In this document: positions 5,809 to 25,978 of the stretch, piece by piece
How the letters are laid out: every line of letters begins with the position of its first letter
Position numbering within the stretch: the first letter of the stretch is position 1
Origin: Jaapia argillacea MUCL 33604
Taxonomy: Eukaryota > Basidiomycota > Agaricomycetes > Jaapiales > Jaapiaceae
Assembly: GCA_000697665.1 (NCBI GenBank)
Contig: KL197764.1
Span: 100,915-134,628 of the forward strand
Reading direction: 5' to 3'
DNA: 33,714 bases
Notes under the pieces: generated by a model
What the model saw: only the letters and a program-made list of their open reading frames with translations
Databases searched by the model: none
What the model was told of the DNA's origin: nothing
Translations under genes and position numbers: made by a program

Positions 5809-8800
5809 TCATTCTAATCCAGCATATCGGACATCAGCGTTGTTGTCTAACCATTTGAGCCACTTTTTGAGGAACGAGCCCCCATGCTCGACGGTTGAGG
5901 AGTCTCCGACGATGCACTACTGGTGTATTAGCCCGTGCAACGGATGGCAAGAACATTCGGATACGAACAAGGTGTCTCTTGGCTCGAGTCATAGCGACTG
6001 AAAGGTGTCCAAGGTCAGCAAACGAATCTGAAGGGGAGGCTGGCATATTACTCACCGTTCAACCTCCGTTTGTCTTTCAGAAAGCCGACTTCTCGCTGGC
6101 GTGGAATGAGAGGGGAACAGTGGATTGGAAAGCGTTACATACCTGCTCGTTACTCCGGACCAGACTGATCACAATTGCTTCCTTTTCACGACCTTGCATG
6201 CCATCGACAGTTCCTATTTCTAGTTCAGGCCCGTGGAGAGGTCGGAGGAGGGATGTCAAGAGCGTGACTTGTGCTTGGTATCTGGAATTCCGATTATTAC
6301 CCGGAGAGGCGGAAATTTTGGGGGCACTCACGGCGTAATGATAGCAATTTGGGAGGGTAGAAGACCGGTCCCAACCTGGGTAATATTGTGAACTCAGGGT
6401 CACTCAAAAACTCGGGAATCGAACCAGTTTTTCAACCCATCGCTTGACGACTTCGGCTTCGTTCTCATTACATCGACTGCCTTCGTCACTATCCCCTTCG
6501 ACCCTTTCAAAATACTCACATCCTGCGGTGTCGAAAAACACGACGGGCGTTTTCAACAACTCCTTCTCGTCATCTTCATCGTCGACGCCAGTGTTCGGGA
6601 GGTCGATCAATAAATGTGACGCGACGGAAGAATGGGAGGCGAGTTTCGACGAATACATGACTTTAGAGGGAAACTGTGCGATCTTTGCGTGCATTCTTGG
6701 GGTGGCTAAGTGCCCATTACGAGAAACGGAACATGAATCCGACGAACCTGTATTGTACCGCGAGCATTCTCTTGATCCCAGGCCCATACATCTTCTCCAG
6801 CCGGCTGAATAGAGTGGTTTCTAGCGTCCTGGGAGGCTCTAACGGCCTTGGGAATGACGAAGGCCCCTTGAGTCCCGAAGTGGACTGGGGAGGTATCACG
6901 ATCGCAGTGTTTTCTATGTCTTCCTCATCGTCCATAGCTTCGTCATGAGATGATTCAGACTCGTCAGACCCTGGCGATGGAGGTGAAGGATCATCCTGAG
7001 GTTCAGCGGATTTGGCGACATTCTTGGCCGATTTTCCGCTCGCATTAGCTACATCGAGTTTTTTTGATTGGTCAGTTTTCTTGGTCTTCGTGGAGTCAGA
7101 GGTTTTCTTGTTCGGCTTGTCAACGGAGAGGATGGTGGGTGGGAGTTGCATTGGATCACCAGCGAGAATCAACTTCTTTGCTTTGAAAATAGGTATCCAA
7201 CAAACCTGAATGATATTCCGCTCAACTGAGGTCCCGGGAACCAGGACGAATTACTCACAGCCTCGAGCGCTTGTGTAGCCTCGTCAATAATCAGGACGTC
7301 AAATTGGTGGTTCCGAAGCTGTCTTCCCCCAGCTGAATGGCAAGTAGCCAGGACAACCTTGTGAGTCCTGTTAATTTGGGATCGACGTAATGGAGGTGGG
7401 AACAGACCTGTGATTCGCTTAAGACCGTCTCCACCACGCCTCCCTCGCGCTGACGATATCTTGTGGGTGTGATTAGACCAAACACCTCGACTAATGAGCG
7501 AGCTCACTCCTTCCTCAGTGCTTTCACTTCCTCCCATAACTTCTTTCGCTCCAATCCTCGAGGTGCTTTGCCTTTAGCTCCCTTCCCCTTGCCTGATAAC
7601 GTACCCAAAGCCGCCTCCAATTCGTTCTTCACATCTTTGGCGAGCGCAGCCTTGCGAGTGTCAAAATACGATCAACATCAGTGGTATAGTGGTTGACCAG
7701 GAAACTAGCCCCAACCTGGTCACTACGTCCTGCTTTTGCGTCGAGCGTTGAGTCAAGCACCCCTTCGTGTGCCATTACGCGCGCCGGGTGGCCTAACCTC
7801 GTGACCTTTAGCTTTTCGCCTTTCTCCGCAGCAGGCAGAGCGATTAATCGTTCCACTATGTTGTCTACGGAAAGATTGGATGCACCGCAGACGAGCAAAC
7901 GTTGGCGTCTTGGGTTTGTCGCCGTTATGGTAGTAAGCTGGCGGATTATTTCTATGAGAGTGTGGGTTTTACCCGTTCCTGTCGCAGATCGATATCAGAC
8001 GTTGCGTGGTTGCGAAGGAGCCAAAAACATACCTGGAGGTCCGTGTATACACGCCACTTCAGGAGACTCCAAGGCAAATTTAACAGCACGCTTCTGACTG
8101 TCATTGAGGGATTCGTCAAAGTATTTGATTTCATTGATGGAAATAGCGCTGGAGGGTTGGGTCATACCCAGCAGGACTTCCGTCAACCTGGTCAACGGCA
8201 ATGAAGACTTTTCAGTTCCCTATAGTGGGATAGTCAGTCAAGAATACAGTGGGATCGGAGCCTTGACGAACTGCGGGTCTCGAGGATGGGACGACCATTC
8301 GCTCGAGCTGATCCAGCGCCTTGTCCATTCTATATCGACTATGATCGGCTGAAGATGGAGCACTGTCAAATTGACGTGCCTATCATAAGTCACGCTGTTT
8401 GCAAGCTTCACGACGCGACATCGATCAGGGAGGTCGATGTCTTCCGAGCTTGAATTAGATGGATCAACAGCTACGACGATACGTGTGTCTGAGACCTGGG
8501 AAGTAGATGAGCAGAGAGAGACTGAATAAACAAGTGTGTTTTACTTTAGAAACGACACCTTCCACCGTCTTGCTGCTCTTCGTGTCCGACGTAACTGCTT
8601 TCTTCGGTTTGGCACCTTTCTTAGGGACATTGGTTGAGATGTTCTCTTCGATTCGTGCGAGATCGCCTGGTCTGAAGTTTGAATTAGATGCAGTATCAAC
8701 GTACTACCAAGATACAATACCTGAAGGTATGGGGAGGAAAGAGCGGTGATGTATGATAAGCGGTGGGCCTCTCCAATTCAACTAGCCTATACTTTGATTC

Positions 8801-11376: not shown

Positions 11377-14300
11377 ATGAGTTCTAGAGGTGACAGAGGA
11401 AGAGGAAGGGGTGGGAGAGGAGGAAGGGGTACTCCCACGCCAAGTGATCGTAGCAGCCCCGGAGGTGAAGGCTTCCGAGGACGAGGTGGTGGTCCTCCAG
11501 GTGGGGACGGCTTCAGAGGTCGAGGAGGTCCTCCGGGTGGCGATGGTTTCAGGGGTCGTGGAGGCCCCCCTGGGGATCGAGGGGGAAGAGGAGGATTCCA
11601 GGATCGCGGTAGAGGAGGGTTTGGAGGTGACCGTGGAGGCAGAGGCTTCGGAGGAGACAGAGGAGGCGGGAGGGGCAGAGGCGGTGGTAGGGAGCCTGGA
11701 GGGTGGGTCACCTGTTCAATATGGACTGGTTCTGATTATTGACGAGTACTCGATAGGGTCTTCCTTCCTGGCCAGCCCGCCGAAATCGATGCTCGCCTTC
11801 GCGACAACGCTCAAGATGCCCTCGTCGCATCTTTCCGTAACCTCACAGTGGCCCCGACCGGGCAAGACCTTCCCCTCCGCCCAGGATACGGCAAGAATGG
11901 CAGAGCCATCAAGCTTCGCGCCAATTTCTTCCCTGTCAGGGTCCCAAAGATTCCCCTCCAAGAATACGACGTTGCTATCACTCCAGCATCAGGGACCACA
12001 AATCGTCGCCTCAAGAGAAGGATTTGGCAACTTGCCGAAGAAACCCGGGATTGGGCTGACGCTGGGATGAGGAACGCGGTGGCTCATGACCATAGTGCGA
12101 AGTTGATTGCGTCAAAGAAGTTGCCCCAGCCGTTGACCATCGCGGTTCCCTATTACGATGAAGACGAAGCCGGTCCTCAGCCCAACGGCAAGACCTACAC
12201 GCTCACTTTCAATTATGTTCAAGAGCTCGACACCGGGAACTTGCTTAGGTTTGTCTTCATCTCTCCTTGCCCACGCTCCTTTCTAAGCTTTTGGTGCAGC
12301 TATCTCGAAGGTCAACCGCAGTACCGCGGATACGACGTCATGCCAATCATTTCAGCTCTGAATCTCATCCTCGCGGCTCACCCAAATCGCTCGGTGGGGG
12401 GCGGAGTCATGGTAGGACGAAACCGATACTTCTTCCCCTCCGCAGCGGAGCCACCTGTGCACCTCGGCGGGGGGTTAGAAGCATGGAAAGGGTTCTACTC
12501 CTCCGTTCGCCCATCGTTCAAGCAGCTGATGGTCAACGTCAACGTCTGTCATACGGCCTTTTATACTCCTGGTGTTCTGGCGGTGAAGATGATTGAGTTC
12601 GAGCGATCGACGTTTGGTGCGAGGATGGCAGTCTTTGTGAAGGGAGTTAGGGTGAAGACGACCCATCTTGGGTATAAGAAGACGGTGAAGAGCTTGGCGA
12701 GACAAACTCCAAGGCAATACTCCTTTGATTCTGAGGAGTATGGTAGAGTCACTTGTGAGGAGTACTTTAAGCGGAGTAAGATACTTCAACATGTCACGGC
12801 GCCAGGGACTGACGACGCCGCCTCTTTGCAGAATACAGGATTACGTTGCAATATCCGGAGCTTCCGCTCGTCGACGTTGGCGGACAGAAGTCCAACTACC
12901 TTCCTCCCGAACTCTGCATGATACTTGACAATCAACCTTTCCGAGGCAAGTTGACGGATGAGCAGACTGCCAACATGATCACAGCAGCTTGCAAGCCACC
13001 GAACGTCAATGGCCAATCAATTGTCGGTCGCGGACTCGGCGAGCTTGGTTTCAGGCAAACGGCGGAACCTCTCGGTTCCTTCGGGGTCAGCATCGGCACG
13101 GAAATGACTGTTGTCCCTGGCAGGATATTACAACCACCTCAGGTTCAATACGGACAAGGTCGACCGAGGGTCGACGAACGCGCCAGCTGGAACTTGAGAG
13201 ACGTCAAGTTTGCCAAAGGCGGTAGGTTGGAGAAGTGGGCGGTATTGCTCATTAAAGATGGTAACAATCGGGACGAGTTCCGCGATGTCAATGATCCCGA
13301 TTTGCGATCCACCGTGAATGGGTTCGCGGCAATGTGCAGGACATCCGGAATGACTGTCGATAACGCCGAGCCTCAGTATGTTCAGGTCCAGCTCCCCCCG
13401 CGAAACCAGGCAGATCCCATCCGAAAGAGCGCAATAGCTGCCATCCGCACGGTCCTCAGGACTGGTCTACGCGCCCGACCCAATCTCGTATTTGTCATCC
13501 TCTCCAGTGGCGACAAGCATATCTACTCTGGGATGAAGCATCTATGTGATGTTTATATGGACGTACCTACCGTCTCGGTTCAATCGGCGAAGTTCAGAAA
13601 GCAACAGCCACAGTACTACGCGAATGTCGCCCTCAAGGTCAACATGAAGATGGGTGGTGTCAATCACAGTGTTACGTCCCAAACGTCAAATTTCTTGAAA
13701 CAAGAACCTACGATGCTCGTGGGCATGGACGTTACTCATCCTGGACCTGGCTCTGTCGCGGGGACTCCTTCCGTCGCTGCCGTTGTCGCGAGCGTCGAGA
13801 ACATGTTCGCTCAATACCCTGCCAGTCTCGCCATTCAAGAGTCGAAGAAGGAGGTGAGCGTGGATTGTCGTCCGTGGGCTTGGGAACCTTATTCATCCTG
13901 ATCTTGCTCTAGATGATTACTGATCTGACCAACCTGATGGTCGAGAGGCTCAACGCATTCAAAGAAAGGAACAGCAATATCCTCCCAAAGCGTATTCTTG
14001 TTTACAGAGATGGAGTATCAGAGGTACATGACTTTTGAACCTCAGCAGCAGAGACTCGCCTGTTGACGTTCTTTACAGGGTCAATTCCAGACCGTCGTAG
14101 GAGATGAATTACCGAAGATCAAGGAAGCGTTCAAGAAATTCGGTAATGCGAAGGCCCCATACAACCCTAAACTCACCATCGTGATCTGTGGAAAGCGACA
14201 CCACACACGGTTCTATCCCACTGAAGCTGGAAACGCTGACAGGGACGGCAACCCTTTGCCGGGAACCGTCGTAGACCAAGGGGTGACGGCGGTCTATGAC

Positions 14301-14977: not shown

Positions 14978-17900
14978 TCAATCCATACCGTCGACTCTCC
15001 ATACCTTAATCACACCGCATCGATCACCACTGACCATTCCACCTCTAAATGGTGAATCAATACATGCCAGAGCCGTGACGGTGTCCTGGTGGGCTTTCAA
15101 TAGGGTCTGCTGGCTGTGGTTGATGAGCGACATTCGTTGGGGAGGTCGATTGCTCAAACTTGAGCTATTCGGAGAATCGATCCATGTTTCGACCAACATC
15201 GATGTTGAACCGGTTGCGGACTTGATAACACTGACGGATATCTTAATTAATTCCGAAAGGACGCGACTGGGAAGGAAAAACATACCCATAAGTTGGTTTG
15301 TCGGCTTCTGGTTCCAAGCCGCTCAACACGGTCGTTCGTTCAACTCCTCCAAGGTCCCACAAACGTATCTTCCGATCCTCCGAACCACTCAGCATAAACC
15401 CGCGACTCCCAGATGGCCGACGCATATCTCCTTCCAGTGTCACACCCATAGGCTCGCCCCTGCGAATTGTGGAGAAGCCACCAAAATCAACTCCTACAAC
15501 GATGGTACGGATATCGGGGGAAGGGCCTGTAATCAACGTTTCCTTGAACTGATTACTTTGGGACGAGTTTCGAGATCGTCGATTGTAACGGTCGCCGGAG
15601 ACACCGTTAGCTTGACGCGATCGGACGAGGGCTGAGATTGCAGCCGCGTGGGTTTTCTCCGGCTCTGTCCCAACCGTGTCAACGGGGTCGTCAATGGACT
15701 GAGTTGGGTTTGTGATCGTCCGCGTCGCATAGGCCTCGACAAGCACTCCATGCTCGATATCCCACACTTCTATGAGGACGGCCGTAACATTCTCTCCAGC
15801 AGGCCGGCAAGACTCGATAACGGCCATTACCCATCTCCCCTTTCCCTTGGAGGGATGAACAACACATTGATGTATCCGTACAGGCTTGGCACTGGAGGAA
15901 CCCCCAGCCCGCCAACTTTTGAGAAGGATCCCAAATCGCAAGTCCCACAAGGACAGGACACCAGTCGAAGTTGCCACAACGACCCAGGCTCGTTTGCGGT
16001 CGAGGCAAAGGCAGGTGATGGGTCCAAAATGTCGGGGATTGTTCATACATTGAAGTATGCGCATTGTCCGAAGGTCCAAAATACACAAGGTCGAATGAGT
16101 AGTTCCATAGATGAGGTTGGACGACGTGTCTAAGGAGAGTACAATGGATATTGGGAGAAAATCAGGGATCAATCGACGCACCAGTATTATAATGTGTCAT
16201 GCATGTGATGTATTCGCCAGGATGTTCGACTCGGTGTTCACGAATGACTTGAAGCTTGTTGTATTTCGGCAACGCACCACTTTGGCTAATGGGCACACGA
16301 ACGACGTGTAGGCTGCCATCATCTGCAGCGCTAGCAAAACAATGCACGGCCTCCAGAGTGCAAACACATTTCACTCGAGCATGATGCTGTGCATAGGTAT
16401 GTCTTGGTTTGCTCGTCACGTTCCTCTCAAGTCTTGCTGTGTCCCAAACTTTGACAGTCTTGTCATCAGATGATGACACGAAAAAGGCGTGGTCGGGAGA
16501 AACAGCCAAACCAGTGACGCAATCGGAGTGGGATTGGAAGTGATGGATCAGCAGGGACTCGACTCTTCTAGTAGACCCGTCTCGAGGAGAGAAGCTATGG
16601 CGAACTGCGTTGCGGCGTCTGACCGGGCCTTCGTGGACTTTAGGCCCAAAGTCTTGCTCCAGGTCACGATTGTTGTCAAGATAGAGCTGCTCCAACATAT
16701 TTGTGATCCCCGGTTCCTGGCCGTCTGTGACGGACAGTCAACTACAGAGTGACAGGTTGGATGAAATTATGTGAAGACTTTACCATATGAAGATATCGGG
16801 ACAACGGGAGGAGCGCGTTGACGAAGCTGACCACGAATCGTCCCAGCAACAGAGACGGGGGAAGATCTCCCAGACCGCTCTGGTGACCCTTCGGACTGCA
16901 TCCGGCTTGCAGTCTCGAGAAGACCCGTCGCATTAGCTCTAGACGACCCAACAGCAGGAGCGGCCTTTTCAGCACCCCCAACGTGCCATCGATTAACCGC
17001 TCGAAACGCAGACGTGTTAGTTGTAGAAGTGATGGATTCTGCAGGGCTACCAGGACGGTCAAGGGTCGGGGGCAAATCTGACGTTGGATGGAGAGTGGTG
17101 TCCGAAACCGGAGGGAGGGAATTACGATGATCTCGGTTAGGTGTGCCAACAGCTAAAGAAGACGCAGAGCCGTTGATGGTGGCGAGCCTCCGTCGCAAGT
17201 CTTCGAAGGGAACCATCCCGGAACCCACCTCACTTGGCGCCCGGCTGAGGCGAGGAGAGTTCGGGCCGAGGATCCTAGCGGACTCAAAGGTTGACCTGCG
17301 AGATGCACGAGGGATAGCTTCAGGGGGGCGTGTCCTCAAAAAGACTGTTTGCGGGACGACGCCAAGTTTCTGAAGCTCAATGTCACCAGTAGTCTTGAGG
17401 CTCTCTGCCTCGGCTTCGAACCTGAGGCGAGAGGAGAAACTGGCGCCAGAGACAGTCAACCGATAGCTTTGCAACGGATACATGCATAACGCGTACCTTG
17501 ATATGGCATCAGCCAACTTGACGATATAATCCCTCATAGCAAGCAGCTTCGCCTCTTCAGTAGATGTCATCCCGATCTGGCGCAATTTCGCCAGATTAAT
17601 CTCATCTCTATCAAAGTAGATTTAACAGACACGCTCGGTCCAAAGGGTCTAATGGGGACTTACTCTTCCGACTTTCCTCGAGTCTGAGGACCAGCCTTTC
17701 TCAAAGCTACCATACTTTCTTTGGGTGACTCAACTTTTGACATCGTCCGACTACGATGATTTCTCCAAAACTGAGTCTTCTCGGCTTTCATCGCCCATGC
17801 AACTGATGCATCGAATATCTGTCGCGAGAGCTAAGAGAAGATCAAGCAGAAAGGTTAGAATGGCGACCCAAGGGTCAAAAAGTTACGGGCTTACGGGGGG

Positions 17901-20900
17901 CTTAAGGGAAAGGAGCAAGCTTTGTTCGTCAATGGACCGCACATCGGCGCGGAGGAAATGCTTGAGGGAAGGGTAAAGTATACACCAAACGTCGCTAGGC
18001 AGGAGGTGCTTCGCGGCAGAAGCGATGAATGCAGCGGCGCCTACCAACATCCTATGTCTTAACAGCGAACAAAATTTCAAGAAGATGAAAGACGCACCTT
18101 GGCGTATCCATATATTCGGATGATACAAAAAACCAAGGGTGGCACTCATCAATTCCCAAATCCTCATCCTCGCGAATAGTCCCAACTCGCAGAGGCTCGT
18201 TAACGACGCAAGTACTTTAGCCACGACAGTCTCTTCCACATCTACAAAAGCGATGTCAAACAAGTGAACAGAGTCCTAAACAAGAAACCACACTCACCTG
18301 ATAGAGCTTGGATCATCAAAGGCAAAATATACTCCTCCAAACTCTTCACCCCAGCACAAGCAGCAACATCCACAATACTCTCAAAAAACGCATACCTCAA
18401 CAACCACTCCCTATCATTCAAATACGTGATCATATGACTCAGCAACACATCATTCGTCTTTTGTCTCCCAAGGAAAATGCACAACGACGAAATGTTATGC
18501 AAGACTGCCCGTTTGACTACGCTGGATGAATCGACTAGGAGAGTCGAGAGGTGATCTGTGATGACGTTTTGTAATTCTTGCATACTGGCATCATACGAAA
18601 CCTATCATAACACATTTTCAGCACGACGAAGCAGCAAATTGCATCGAAAAGGGGAGCAACAAACCTCGAAATGAGCTTCATCATACTCCATCCTATCAGC
18701 CGATATCTTCAAAGTCCCATGAGCCTTCAACGCCTGCCCCATCTCCAAATACCTAACAGCCGTATCCGCAAGTGGAGCCAAACACTGCGCATACAAGCTC
18801 CTCACCGAGACCTCCTGATCTTGCACGAGTGGGGATATATGCTGAAAGATATACTCTGGGAATATAGCAGCGTTTGAAGGCGTTATGACCGTCACCAACA
18901 TCGTCTACTCCAAAAAAAAAATCCAAAAGGTAATCAGATCAGTAGTGAGATGTATAATAGATCGAGAAGGGAGAATGAAGACGAGACGTACGACTTGAAC
19001 CAAAGTCCTCAACGCAGCCCCTCTAACAACAGCCGCCTCATCATGCAACAAATCCACCACATAAGGAACCAACCTATCCAACTTTGCTTCATCCGTCAAA
19101 TGGGTCGACAACGCCAAAAACACATCCAAAGCTCGAAGTTTGGAAGAGGGTAAAAGACAATTTCGGATGTTGGCGCATACGAGGGAGAGGAGGATTAACG
19201 CCGGTCCGTCTAAAGTGTCAGATACAAAAGGAGATGTCAGGTTGGGGGTGAGATGGTTGGAGGGGGAGAAGGGAAGGGAGAGATGGTACGTACGTACCCT
19301 CAGAAGCAGCCCTCCTCTGCCCCACCCCAGTCAACAACTTCGATTCCCGATTCGGTATATGCAATTCCACAGGTAGCACATCCTACACACCCAAATCAAC
19401 AACCCATCACAAAATAAAGTCATCTCACACACCTGAAAAGCCTTATAAGACCCTAACCCAACACCTACATACCCCTCATCCACTCTCACAGTACCCGCAT
19501 TCTCCTCCAAAGTTCCCTCATGTGGAGGACTAACAAGCATCTCAATCACACCTTCATAATCCTCCCATATCCTCTCTATTTTCCGATCAGAGTCATTGGG
19601 TAACGCACCACTCCCAGCACCCCCAGCACCCAGTTCCACACCGGGATTAGTGCTGAACTTCCCCGCGGCCGTAGAAGGCGCAGAACTGAGAGTCGAGGGT
19701 GAAGGTGTGAGAGTGACGTGTGGAAGTGAGGGGGCGATACCGCTATGAGGGTGTCCTAGATGAGGATGTGTAGGCGTCGGTGCTGTATGTGTACCAGCCG
19801 TGGAAGGCGAGTGGACGGGTTCGTTGAGGGTCGAAACGTAGTTGTGCAAGAATGAATAAAAACATTCTGGGAAAACCGTTCCTCGGCTTGTTTGAAGGAG
19901 AGTGTCGAATGAAGGTCGGGTTAGAGGGTCGAGGGATATCATTTGTTTTATCAGACCCTATACGCAAACCAACGTCAACTTTAGTTAAACCATAACAATA
20001 ATCAAGACCAGAGAAGAAAACGACATCACTCACCCTAACACCCTCATCCTCCACACCCCCCAAAGCCCCGTCCACACTCAACTCGCCCTCCCTATACTTG
20101 AAAAGCTGACTCAATGTAAACAACGGCGTCCCTTCCATCCACAACTCCGCCAACACACACCCCACACTAAACACATCCATAGCTTCACTAACCCTCCCAT
20201 CCCTCTTCCCCCCAACCACCACCTCCTCACCCTCCCCTCCCTCCCCATACTGTTTCCTAGCCGCAACCTCAGGATTCTCAGAAGCGGTATAAAACCTCTC
20301 GGGCGCGAGGTAACATGTCCTCCTGCCCGAAGTATCGAAATAGAACGAGAAATCCGAAGGGTCGTCGAGAGGGAGGTAGGTAGGTTTGTATGAAGTTGAG
20401 AAATCTGAGAGGTAGATTGTGTTGGATGATGTTACGAGGACGTTTTCGGATTTGATATCTCCGTGTGAGATTTTGGAGAGGGTACGTGTTTGGTGGAGGG
20501 CTGAGAGGAGTTGGTAGGAGATGTAGAGTTTCTCGATTGGGGTTAGGAAGGGTCGGGTGCTGCGTGTTTGTGTGGTGAGAGTTGAGTTGAGTTGAGTCGA
20601 GAAGAGAAGAGAGGAGGGGACGATGGATGTACGGACCTGATTCGATCGTATAGATTACTTGCTACCCATTGTCGAATAACATATCCCGCTCTATCTGTCT
20701 CTACAAAAGCTTGATAGCCATAAACATTTGGCAAATCCTGCAAGGCTTCTCTTTCAACTGCCATTGGCGAGTGAAAGGGTCGGTCAGAATGAAAAGTAAG
20801 ATGTAAACCAATTAATGCTCACCCTTTAATCTTCGATGATACGTCCGTAAACTAAATCCAGGATCTGGTTTGATGAAGATTTTGACAACAAGATACCCAT

Positions 20901-21919: not shown

Positions 21920-24900
21920 TCACTCATACATCACAAGGTACAACGGTAGGATGGCGCGATGGTCAAACACCACCAGACTGTCATATTCGTTAGCGGGCCG
22001 ACCATGAGCACGAGGCTCACTTGGCCGAGATCCATTGCGCGGATTTGATCCACCAGTTTGTATGTTGTCGTCGCTGTTGGATCGGCGCCATTGAGAACTA
22101 GATGACGCTGTCTTGTCGTGCGAGAACGCGCAGTACTCGCTGTGATTGGATGCATTGAGTGAAGACTACTTGGAGAGCAGTGGGTTGCTCACCCATTTTG
22201 ACAACCCTTCATTGTATTATAAAATGAGCACGGCCCTTTCGGCGGTCTACTACCGTTAGCTGAATGAGTGCGAACGGGTCCCGGTAGTCCTTGGACGTGC
22301 GAGAACTTGCAGTCCTTGCTGTGAGAGCATTTGAGTGAAAAGTTACTTGGAGAACACGGGATTGCCCACCCATATTTACAACCCTTCGTTGTACCATAGT
22401 ATGAGCACGGCCCTTTCGGCGGTCTACCGCCGTTCGCTGAATAAGTCCGAACGGGTTCTGGTAGTTCCTGTCTGGGGCCATCGACTACCGGCATGGCACT
22501 TGTCGCATCCGTGGAGCCGCCTATTGCTTTGAAGGAGCCACCAATGGCCTTGAAGGAGCCACCAGTGGCCTCGACGGAGCCACCGACGGCCTTGTCGAAG
22601 CCATCATCCGCCTTGACGGAGCGCCTTTCAGCCTTGCTGGATCCACGATCGGCCTTCATCGGGCCACCTGGGATGTGTGGGGTGATAGTGTGATCAAACA
22701 ACGGAAGCCGTTCACCCTGCGAGCGTACTGTGGCGAGGGGTCGGGGTTTGGGTATATCAGGGAATGTGAGTTCTCCGACCTGGAAAATATATCAGATAAC
22801 CTTATTAATTTGATATGAGATCCGACACACAGAGTTGTACCCCTCAGGAATCTCCGTCAATCTTTCATCTCGTTCCACAGAATAAACATTTCCAGCAATC
22901 ACTTCGCATAGCAGCACAGGTTTCAGAGGACGAGAGGACGACTGCTGGAAGAGCCGATCAAAGGATCTTGACTGACGTCAATGCTGAGACAACCACCGAT
23001 GGTGTAGGCTTGCATACCTGGATGGGCTTGATGACATGGAGAAGCCCCAGTCATATCTGGAGTCAAAGGACTGAAGTGTGAATGGAATCGTCGGGTAAGT
23101 CCAAGAAGAGACAAACCTTCGCCACTTCAGCGCTTTACCACGGAGATACTCTAAAGACTTGATCGTACGGCAAATACCACAGGTTGGGAAAGTGCAGGTC
23201 ACGCTCTGCGATGACTGTCCGATTAAACATGGACATCGAGGGCCGTACCAACGTCGGTCCTGATTTCCGGGAACTTGCCACAGTTCGCATGAAGAATCCA
23301 TGCTTTCACTGGGGCAACTGTCTGTAAGTGTAATTCATAGGCACGCGGGGCGGTTTGCAGCTCACCGATAAGACTCATGGTTAGCCTGAGCTTCTGATGA
23401 AGAGATGACCCTGAAGACTCTGGTTACAACTGGAGCCTTGGAGTCAATTCCCCACGACTGGATAAAATACTGAGCCACTGGGAAGGTGAAGTCAATATCG
23501 GGGATATCAATGCCAAGAACTTGCTCCTGACCTCGCATAAACATGGGGTGAGTGATTGGTACATCCAGCACATTGGACGCAGAGGCAGCAGCGTCAAGCG
23601 CACATGAAGTGCCACAGAAAGGATCGTCCAGGCTATCCCACATCCGGCAGTTTATGCGACAGAACAAGCAAATGTTGGTGGCATACCTTTCAAAAGAGCA
23701 TTATGAGGGCAAAAAGGGCACGAGGAAACTGAACGACCCACATCGCATGGTGCGTGATACACACCTCGAATGCTTGAATACCATCGAATATCACGGGTTC
23801 TTCACAGCCGCGGATTCTGCACGTCTGATTCCATTTAAGGGCACATGCATCGCTGCAGAAGTCATGTTGAATGTTCCCATCAGAATGTTTCGGTTGATTG
23901 TAGCAGACCTGTGGTGACACGTTAGGCCAATTCGATCAAGTGCAATGAATAAGCTCACAACACATGAATTGGGCAAAGAAGCTTCAGTAGGATCGGGGGA
24001 GACAGATGAAAAAGCCGCCCTAGGCGACCTCCGCTGCTCCGTGAAATTTACCGTAGTCGGAAGAGTGGAAACCGGTCGAGTTGGAGGACTTGTTGGCAAA
24101 ACTACTTCGGTTTCTGGTAGAGGGCATGTAATTTTAGCCGTTGTGACAGTTCCTCGGCAAATATCCTCCATATCACGGAGGGCAGTCGCTGCGCTTGGCC
24201 TGTCTTCTGGGAGTTCCGACCAGCAATGCTCAATAAGGGACCACAAATCGTCGGGTAGTGTTCGCTCCAGACACTGAGCACTGGATGGACGGCTGGGCCT
24301 TTGTTTCCGATGGAGTTTCAATGCCAATTGGGCATCGCTACAACCCATAAATGGAGGGTGACGTGTGTAGATCTACCAAAGAGTCGTTGATCAGTCAAAT
24401 ACCCCACTGTCAGTTAAGACACTGAGATCACGAACCTCCAGATACACACATCCCAAGGCGTAGACATCACTTGCGAAGGTCCTTTCGAACGAGAGGTTGA
24501 ATCTATCAGGGAAATGGAGTTCGGGCGCCATCCATTGAGGGGAACCAGCATTGTTCGTACTGCGGGCACCCTTGGTCACATCAGCAATGCTCGCTAGCCC
24601 GAAGTCCGCAAGACGGACGTGACGTGTATCATCGATGAGAATGTTGTTCTATGGATGGGTTATCAACACGCTCCTCCAGATACAGAGGAACACGCACCCC
24701 GCGGAGGTCACCGTGTATCATCTTTGACTGATGAAGATAATTCAATCCCTCAGTAATCTCGAGCAGCTGCAACCGATACTATCAGTCTCCGAACTGATGT
24801 AGGGGTGAAAACCATACCAGTTGGTCGATGTCAACTTGCACTGGACCAGAACGTTTCAGAAACGTCAAGATATCACCATGTCGCATCCATGGAGATACTA

Positions 24901-25978
24901 TACAAGACAAGGGAGCGAAGGAGATGGCATCAATGCCTAGGAAGGGAAGGACGTAGCGATGCTCGAGGGATTTCCAGATCAGCGCTTCCTGGAAGACCTT
25001 CTATTTCCGGGTTCAGACCTGCGTTCGAGCCGACCACTGAGCAGAGACTCACTTTACATATGATCAGTTGATCGCTTTCCTTATCCTGCAGTGCTCTCGG
25101 GCGTTTAAGAGCAACTACTACCCCTCCAAGTTCACCTTGGTAGACATCCGCGAACGAACCTCCTAGGATAGAGACCTTACTCCATAGCTTCACGCCATCG
25201 ATGCATATGGAGGAAGGAAGCTTCTGGCAACGCAACGACAAACTGATAAGGAGTTTATGAACATCTCGGCAAAACTTTTCGGTGAAGTTGAAGAAGTGAT
25301 CAGAGGTGTCTACATCTCCTCTGGCTTGAGGTCGACCATTACCAATCCGGCGCCACCATCCCCAGTCATCGAGAACCTATGAAGGAGATCACTCAAGGAA
25401 AATGCTGGATGGAACGAGACGAACGGTTTGCGCCAATATCATGAATGAATCCGCCTCGTCATCTTCCAGAGAGACCACTTCCGCCTTGTGTTCTTCAGAA
25501 TCGATTACCTTTCCAAGTAGAGATACGATGTCTGCTTGATCTTTGGCGATAGCCTCTCTTTCCTGTGTCTCGTCGCGGCGCTCAACACCCTTCAAGACCT
25601 GAGAACACCTGAGAATGAGAAGAGTACCTCCGTTCTGCGACCCGCTTACATGATACAAAGAGTCACGGAACTTGCTGCACCGTACTAAACTCTGAACGAC
25701 GCCAATGTTGGACATTTGACCCAAGCAATCTCTCAAATCCGACCATTGTCTGCATCGAGGATAAGCGATGAAATCGGTGAGGACAGCTGCATCATACCTG
25801 CTGCTGGACAGATCGTGATCGGGCGGAGATGCCTTTTGGATAGCTCGGATCAGCAATGAGGAGAGGTACTTGGAAAAAGGTAAATCAGGATCGCCGAGAA
25901 CGAAGCAGCATCCAGAACTACCTTGTAGACTCGAGGCTCTGGCAAGTCGGAAGGCCAGGGTGAAGCGACAAAAGACAT
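21920..25978 (-). CDS. Kinase - Cys-rich zinc-knuckle - PARP-like ART fusion with two inserted CCCH zinc fingers
   Basis: The start at 25978 reads MSFVASPWPSDLPEPRVYK. An N-terminal helical region is followed by a TKL-type kinase domain: SILGGSFADVYQG, ATP lysine in VVVALKRPR, HGDLRGNNILIDD, LADFGLASI, SPQWMAPEL and the final ELPEDRPSAATALRDM. A Ser/Pro linker runs through a phase-0 intron, with no stop, into Cys/His-rich segments (VCYNQPKH, HDFCSDACALKWNQTCRIRGC, EVCITHHAM, CLFCRINCRMW, DPFCGTSCALDAA). Next comes a PARP-like ART domain (VTRVFRVISSS, NQDRRWYGPRCPC, CGICRTIKSLEYL, YDWGFSMSSSPS, KPVLLCEVIAGNVYSVERD, EIPEGYNSVGE). Its final strand (EYDSLVVFDHRAILPLYLVM) is reached only after an insert of roughly 220 residues with heptad repeats and two CCCH fingers. 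Kinase catalytic residues look intact; ART H-Y-E residues are replaced (Y, S, S). Exon joins were inferred by hand; a split into two genes is possible but needs no stop codon that I can find. Stop at 21920, or 21931 if a 43-nt intron is removed. Confidence 0.75.
22117..22472 (-). repeat. Tandem duplication of a CCCH zinc-finger exon-intron unit (about 178 nt x 2)
   Basis: Two adjacent copies (22117-22295 and 22296-22472) each encode a leader (PVRTYSANGGRPPKGPC / PVRTHSANGSRPPKGPC), a CCCH finger and an intron at the same place (22369-22319 and 22192-22140 on the minus strand, 51 and 53 nt). After splicing the fingers read CSYYGTTKGCKYGKDCKFSH and CSFYNTMKGCQNGEYCAFSH, both C-x8-C-x5-C-x3-H. 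The introns also resemble each other, pointing to a duplication at DNA level that included the intron. Confidence 0.85.
22498..22644 (-). repeat. Seven 21-nt repeats encoding heptapeptides of GSFKAIG type
   Basis: Inside the kinase-PARP gene, seven consecutive 7-residue units can be read: GSSKAER, RSVKADD, GFDKAVG, GSVEATG, GSFKAIG, GSFKAIG, GSTDATS. Units five and six are identical in protein. This is a low-complexity linker just before the CCCH fingers. Confidence 0.8.

Follow-up and report, generated by a model that had tools for sequence, protein, structure and literature searches.

The gene described here appears to encode, in one polypeptide, a protein kinase, Cys/His-rich zinc-type modules, CCCH fingers and an ADP-ribosyltransferase (ART) domain of the PARP type, a combination confirmed at the level of the gene model. 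It lies on the minus strand, at 21920..25978, of a 33,714-nucleotide (nt) stretch of the genome of Jaapia argillacea MUCL 33604 (contig KL197764.1, positions 100,915 to 134,628), called the window below. The ART domain is predicted to be catalytically dead, and the fingers are inserted into it. An initial annotation of the window had given the same span and named the same four kinds of domain, and this much stands; what it missed was the lost catalytic triad, the insertion, and that the module belongs to a larger family, whose unfused zinc-ART members lie elsewhere in this genome.

One gene, its paralogue and its kinase

All 16 introns of the final model are GT-AG and 48-63 nt long, which agrees with the earlier statement that the exon joins use consensus sites and keep frame. 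Introns of about 50 nt, along with the gene content, would fit a basidiomycete. Retention of an intron would disrupt the protein in 12 of the 16 cases (6 by frameshift, 6 by a stop); the other four introns are in-frame and stop-free, among them 23531-23478 and the intron of the first finger, 22369-22319. The former was recognized by comparison with relatives, and a model of 1089 amino acids (aa), whose extra 18-aa stretch is this intron, was rejected in favor of the final one of 1071 aa. The longer model or parts of it served as query for the genome search with the tail, the search of solved structures, one viral-contig scan, the modeling of relatives and the triad alignment, while the Pfam scan and the paralogue alignment were redone with the final model.

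The domain order is N-terminal region, kinase, Ser/Pro linker, zinc-type modules, and ART domain with two CCCH fingers inserted. A single 414-nt exon (24372-23959) carries the kinase C-terminus and the linker up to the first zinc module. A paralogue of the same layout (C27:189203-185479) was found on another contig by a zinc-ART search of the window's own genome (43.7 Mb, 95 contigs). Spliced alignment of the window protein to it, with no intron information given, covers 976 aligned residues followed by one codon and the stop. The paralogue has 15 introns, and all 15 fall at aligned window-intron positions; the window's sixteenth lies in an extra CCCH copy. Because a gene elsewhere keeps the same layout and intron positions, we read the span as one continuous gene, as first proposed, and the two-gene reading was rejected on the shared exon together with the paralogue's preserved frame and introns.

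The two proteins are 62% identical over 962 aligned codons. The ratio of nonsynonymous to synonymous divergence (dN/dS, simple Nei-Gojobori) is about 0.2 in the N-terminus, kinase and CCCH part, 0.1 in the zinc modules, 0.3 in the ART domain and 0.4 in the linker, and none of the eight segments measured reaches 0.5; these ratios are rough, since dS ranges between 0.7 and 2.5 (ART 1.1, CCCH part 1.35).

Pfam finds the kinase with PF07714, the profile proposed at the outset (9e-38, aa 222-476, 130.5 bits), and with PF00069 (5.7e-36, 124.7 bits). PF07714 is the better match of the two; the TKL label given at the outset is tentative. The model contains K241, HGD at 336-338, N343, DFG at 356-358 and APE, motifs whose catalytic roles we take as given. 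Everything expected of a eukaryotic protein kinase is thus present (profile; catalytic Lys, HxD, Asn, DFG, APE), and the kinase is apparently catalytically intact, as had been claimed from its Lys, HGD and DFG. The Pro/Ser linker leading from kinase to Cys-rich segments was also correctly described. The N-terminal region has no Pfam match; it is 62% identical to that of the paralogue, with dN 0.22.

The ART domain, its lost triad and the inserted fingers

Recognition of the ART domain depends on relatives. The initial annotation had named the lack of a PARP match by profile search as grounds for abandoning its reading, and with PF00644 that is literally the result: at E <= 1 this Pfam profile does not match the whole window protein, and with the ART piece it reaches 11.3 bits (E 0.24), under the curated cut-off of 26.7. 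The paralogue falls slightly under this cut-off (26.1 bits, E 7.1e-6), and all four unfused relatives scanned, out of six modeled, exceed it (45.5-53.0 bits). A profile of the six relatives, whose models were guided by window-derived queries, matches the window protein at 1.3e-40 for zinc modules plus ART and at 5.1e-23 for ART alone (aa 658-822), with a separate match to the last ART segment (aa 1050-1071), 0.067 by itself. None of 200 shuffled window proteins matched the ART profile at E <= 1, and the remaining rows of that search were the paralogue and single-frame window pieces, by profile positions apparently the exons of this gene. Three PF00644 matches were found independently in raw reading frames of the genome, one of them within a zinc-ART gene on contig C16.

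Against solved structures, the zinc-plus-ART profile of the six relatives matched 72 sequences at E <= 0.01; the best 60 of 72 were PARPs and tankyrases, headed by a Poly [ADP-ribose] polymerase chain (3.5e-14) and tankyrase-1 (4.8e-14). The window protein searched directly gave 28 matches, all to PARP chains, the best at a non-significant E of 0.17. By way of its relatives, then, the window domain can be regarded as homologous to PARP-type ART domains; that part of the original proposal survives, and its direct detection by PF00644 does not. The Cys/His-rich modules ahead of the domain, which have no Pfam match (aa 547-656), presumably bind zinc.

The H-Y-E triad (His, Tyr, Glu) is retained in six of six modeled unfused genes (invariant columns H189, Y239, E299). 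The corresponding residues are Y719, S768 and S1053 in the window protein and Y-Y-G in the paralogue, so neither shows H-Y-E or the H-Y-x of mono-ARTs. Read from the sequence, residues for NAD+ binding would be lost as well. Both fused proteins retain all four cysteines of an intra-ART motif, and their last ART segments are 91% identical over 22 codons (dN 0.06). Since the cysteines and last strands are kept, dN/dS is low and the triad is lost in both copies, the domain looks like a maintained pseudo-enzyme.

It is highly improbable that the ART domain has kept its activity despite the altered triad, giving a kinase and an ADP-ribosyltransferase in one protein: the glycine following the His position is retained and Glu is typically absent from human mono-ARTs (PMC9189837), but both copies have Tyr at the His position and Ser or Gly at the Glu position, the window copy also has Ser for Tyr, and an insertion of 227 aa stands ahead of the Glu strand. 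The least probable of all the readings considered is that the single gene is a misreading of two adjacent genes, of a pseudogene in decay or of a faulty assembly. In a tree of eight ART domains, with three of its five inner branches drawn open and one relative (C30d) on a long branch, window protein and paralogue form one clade (100/100), within which the window ART is the more diverged (branch 0.69 vs 0.29) and lacks a further triad residue, as decay would have it; against this stand the exon shared by kinase end and linker, the complete paralogue elsewhere with its frame, layout and introns, and the low dN/dS in every segment.

The fingers had been placed ahead of the PARP-like domain. They lie instead inside it, and the last ART strands follow them: where unfused genes have a short stretch between the GYDSV strand and the final YDELVVY...PSYLVMY strands, the window protein has the 227 aa of the insertion. 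Pfam reports PF00642, as the annotation had expected (5.4e-6, 26.6 bits, cut-off 20.5), and PF22623 (3.3e-6), each over two stretches that are both above cut-off. The insertion of the paralogue has fewer residues and one finger; its spacing fits by eye, but its scores of 22.1 and 19.7 bits fall short of the Pfam cut-offs, 27 and 24.6 bits respectively. In PARP1 the acceptor loop comprises residues 977-988 and ends at Glu988 (PMC7198025), a triad residue (PMC8150716). Because the insertion ends immediately before the strand bearing the Glu position, we infer from strand order and the tankyrase alignment that the CCCH fingers occupy the acceptor-loop position. The long loop of TASOR was considered as an equivalent insertion site and rejected, as it lies between the last two strands, which is the next loop (PMC7532188).

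The last ART strands are encoded in the same final exon as finger 2. If exon 16 (126 nt, phase 2 at either end) is skipped by itself, the frame is kept and one hybrid finger is left, while skipping of exons 15 and 16 together is ruled out as frame-keeping (intron 14 is in phase 0, intron 16 in phase 2). As exon-16 skipping or retention of intron 22369-22319 would keep the frame with no stop, alternative isoforms that change the fingers are possible, a prediction from the gene model.

Table 1. Features of the gene, in window coordinates
Feature	Position	Strand	Remarks
Whole gene, 17 exons, 1071 aa	21920..25978	-	ATG 25978, stop 21920; final gene model
N-terminal region, aa 1-213	25188..25978	-	later part also present in the sibling kinases of C12 and C27
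Protein kinase domain, aa 214-480	24169..25187	-	Pfam PF07714 and catalytic motifs
Pro/Ser-rich linker, aa 481-546	23971..24168	-	shares exon with kinase end; 49% identity to paralogue
Cys/His-rich zinc-type modules, aa 547-656	23533..23970	-	common to unfused zinc-ART genes
Intron, 54 nt, in-frame, stop-free	23478..23531	-	revealed by comparison with relatives
ART (PARP-type) domain, first part, aa 657-822	22774..23535	-	four intra-ART cysteines retained
Insertion into ART domain, aa 823-1049 (227 aa)	21989..22773	-	low-complexity region and two CCCH fingers
21-nt tandem repeat, 5.2 copies	22513..22622	-	codes for GGS/KA-rich stretch
177-nt tandem repeat, 2.0 copies, 82% matches	22117..22465	-	intron included; gives the two CCCH fingers
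CCCH finger 1, aa 945-964, C-x8-C-x5-C-x3-H	22297..22407	-	split by intron 22369-22319
CCCH finger 2, aa 987-1006, C-x8-C-x5-C-x3-H	22118..22230	-	split by intron 22192-22140
ART domain, last two strands, aa 1050-1071	21923..21988	-	S1053 at catalytic Glu position

Relatives in the genome and neighbors in the window

Six unfused zinc-ART genes were modeled over their zinc-ART part only, four on contig C30 and two on C16 (C30:408000-417900, C30:417000-424000, C16:678500-688000), two of them (C30d and C16b) incomplete even there. They belong to a partly clustered family with the H-Y-E triad and the intra-ART four-Cys motif, and resemble the window gene in the kind of zinc modules, in ART sequence, in intra-ART cysteines and at a number of intron positions; they differ in keeping the triad and in having no CCCH insertion. 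No kinase was detected in the three fetched stretches, where query scores of 35-41 compare with 39-51 in three shuffled runs. Further ART-like matches lie on C30, C8 and C16, and PF00644 matches at C2:1801500-1809500 and C19:501500-508500 cover profile positions 1-75 (54.2 and 53.6 bits). By profile, the unfused genes are nearest to tankyrases. Tankyrases join ankyrin repeats and SAM to the ART domain; the Pfam scan of the window protein at E <= 1 found no ankyrin repeats, SAM or WWE.

The kinase type recurs in four sibling kinase genes on C12 and C27, together with a number of the intron positions and a portion of the N-terminal region; these genes have no zinc-ART tail within the 256-589 nt past their aligned part, and the genome search with the tail gave no match near them. 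Match counts in these genome searches are lower bounds for large families: the tail query gave at least 17 matches, which are the fused layout at C56 (the window) and C27 and the places on C30 and C16, and a query of N-terminus plus kinase start gave at least 63, of which none falls at the zinc-ART places of C30, C8 and C16. As the fused layout among these matches stands at C56 and C27, and sibling kinases and zinc-ARTs are otherwise apart in the stretches covered, the fusion probably formed once and was then duplicated. In this scenario a zinc-ART cassette would have joined a member of the genome's kinase family, the fused gene would have duplicated, and the finger would then have doubled in the window copy. 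Two scans of viral contigs found no relatives outside this genome.

About 7 kb from the kinase gene lies an Argonaute gene, 11743-13901 (+), probably continuing to ~14736, with ArgoN, ArgoL1, PAZ, ArgoL2 and Piwi over their Pfam cut-offs and Mid slightly under. WD40 and kinase pieces at 16162-16737 and 19743-20654 (-), a few kb apart on one strand, look like parts of a VPS15-type gene. An AAA_11 match at 6717-7250 (-) presumably marks a helicase of UPF1/SEN1 type.

Known pseudo-PARPs and a possible function

Two of the sources used here are PARP surveys, PMC2964712 (Citarelli et al. 2010) and PMC4245714 (Perina et al. 2014). The closest comparison is with PARP13/ZAP (ZC3HAV1). Human PARP13 has a Y-Y-V triad, with Tyr for His, and is inactive (PMC9189837; PMC8568172); its dead PARP domain is required for full antiviral activity (PMC8568172), and its CCCH fingers bind RNA (PMC4245714). 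The window protein likewise has a dead PARP domain, Tyr at the catalytic His position, and CCCH fingers in the same polypeptide. ZAP differs in its N-terminal fingers, its WWE and the absence of a kinase; the CCCH-plus-WWE arrangement before PARP is not found in the window protein, which has its fingers within the ART domain and a kinase ahead of it. Since the nearest solved structures by the profile of the unfused relatives are tankyrases, the likeness to ZAP is probably convergent. TASOR, a pseudo-PARP in transposon control whose PARP domain binds RNA weakly (PMC7532188), RCD1 (PMC2964712) and PARP9 (PMC9189837) also retain the PARP fold without catalysis, and differ in that no kinase and no CCCH insertion are described for them in those texts.

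Among the literature matches listed, titles and the beginnings of abstracts showed no kinase-ART fusion in fungi, though annotated proteomes may still hold the layout. Fungal PARPs fall in clades 1 and 6 (PMC2964712); in the available text of that paper "kinase" occurs twice, both times in the reference list, and in that of PMC4245714 it also has two occurrences. FslK is a lineage of Agaricomycete kinases, and the text available for it does not contain "PARP" or "zinc" (PMC3937382). Equally, "kinase" is absent from the portion available of a Fusarium PARP study (PMC11569842) and "PARP" from that of a survey of fungal NLRs (PMC4986451). No description of a partly clustered zinc-ART family with intact triads was found in the portions of the literature searched.

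The earlier suggestion that the protein may sense nucleic acid or ADP-ribose through its C-terminus and signal through its kinase is a reasonable one. As the best explanation of the whole we infer, tentatively and at less than even confidence, a signaling kinase controlled by a ZAP/PARP13-like pseudo-ART that binds RNA or a partner. The protein would be an intracellular signaling kinase with a pseudo-ART at its C-terminus that acts as a platform for binding and regulation, as in PARP13/ZAP. Its CCCH fingers would bind RNA, which is most likely the ligand of the tail, and binding would relieve or trigger the kinase, probably through the pairing of two molecules, and recognition of a ligand by the tail would thereby lead to phosphorylation. 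Several points weigh against this explanation. Proteins and DNA are further possible ligands of CCCH fingers. The paralogue's only finger scores below the Pfam cut-offs, as given above, and the absence of NAD+ binding is a prediction from sequence. A kinase within the ZAP or TASOR polypeptide was not found in the available portions of the literature on them, which leaves the coupling step without precedent in those texts.

It is unlikely, though conceivable, that the pseudo-ART instead binds proteins, with the kinase phosphorylating or reporting on these partners and the fingers only adding affinity. Candidate partners would be the zinc-ARTs of the same genome with intact triads, or something that targets them. 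The presence of such partly clustered, unfused H-Y-E kin of the dead copy fits this idea, as does the conservation of zinc modules and ART part between the two fused copies, but it leaves unexplained why both copies have their CCCH fingers within the ART domain. Rather improbable is a tail that reads ADP-ribose or NAD+, its zinc modules or altered ART pocket binding without catalysis and setting the kinase. The ART domain is conserved and the triad-bearing ARTs of the genome would supply the mark; on the other side, neither copy retains His or Glu of the triad, the window copy lacks Tyr as well, and PARP9 and PARP13 lack the His required for NAD+ binding (PMC9189837).

A more specific form of the preferred explanation, in which kinase activity is controlled by an RNA-binding pseudo-ART, is a fungal RNA sensor: a ZAP-like CCCH pseudo-PARP would recognize foreign or transposon RNA and switch on an effector kinase in the same chain. 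We regard this as quite unlikely. If true, it would combine the roles of ZAP and PKR, which animals keep apart, in a sensor derived from the zinc-ART family of this fungus itself, its fingers lying where active PARPs hold the acceptor substrate. Dead PARPs are known from antiviral and anti-transposon work (ZAP, TASOR), but in the texts available none of them carries a kinase of its own. With a kinase joined to a maintained pseudo-ART that bears RNA-type fingers within it, one could readily ask if an inactive ART is able to work as a switch under the control of a ligand; such a fusion may also be a lead towards intracellular sensing in fungi.

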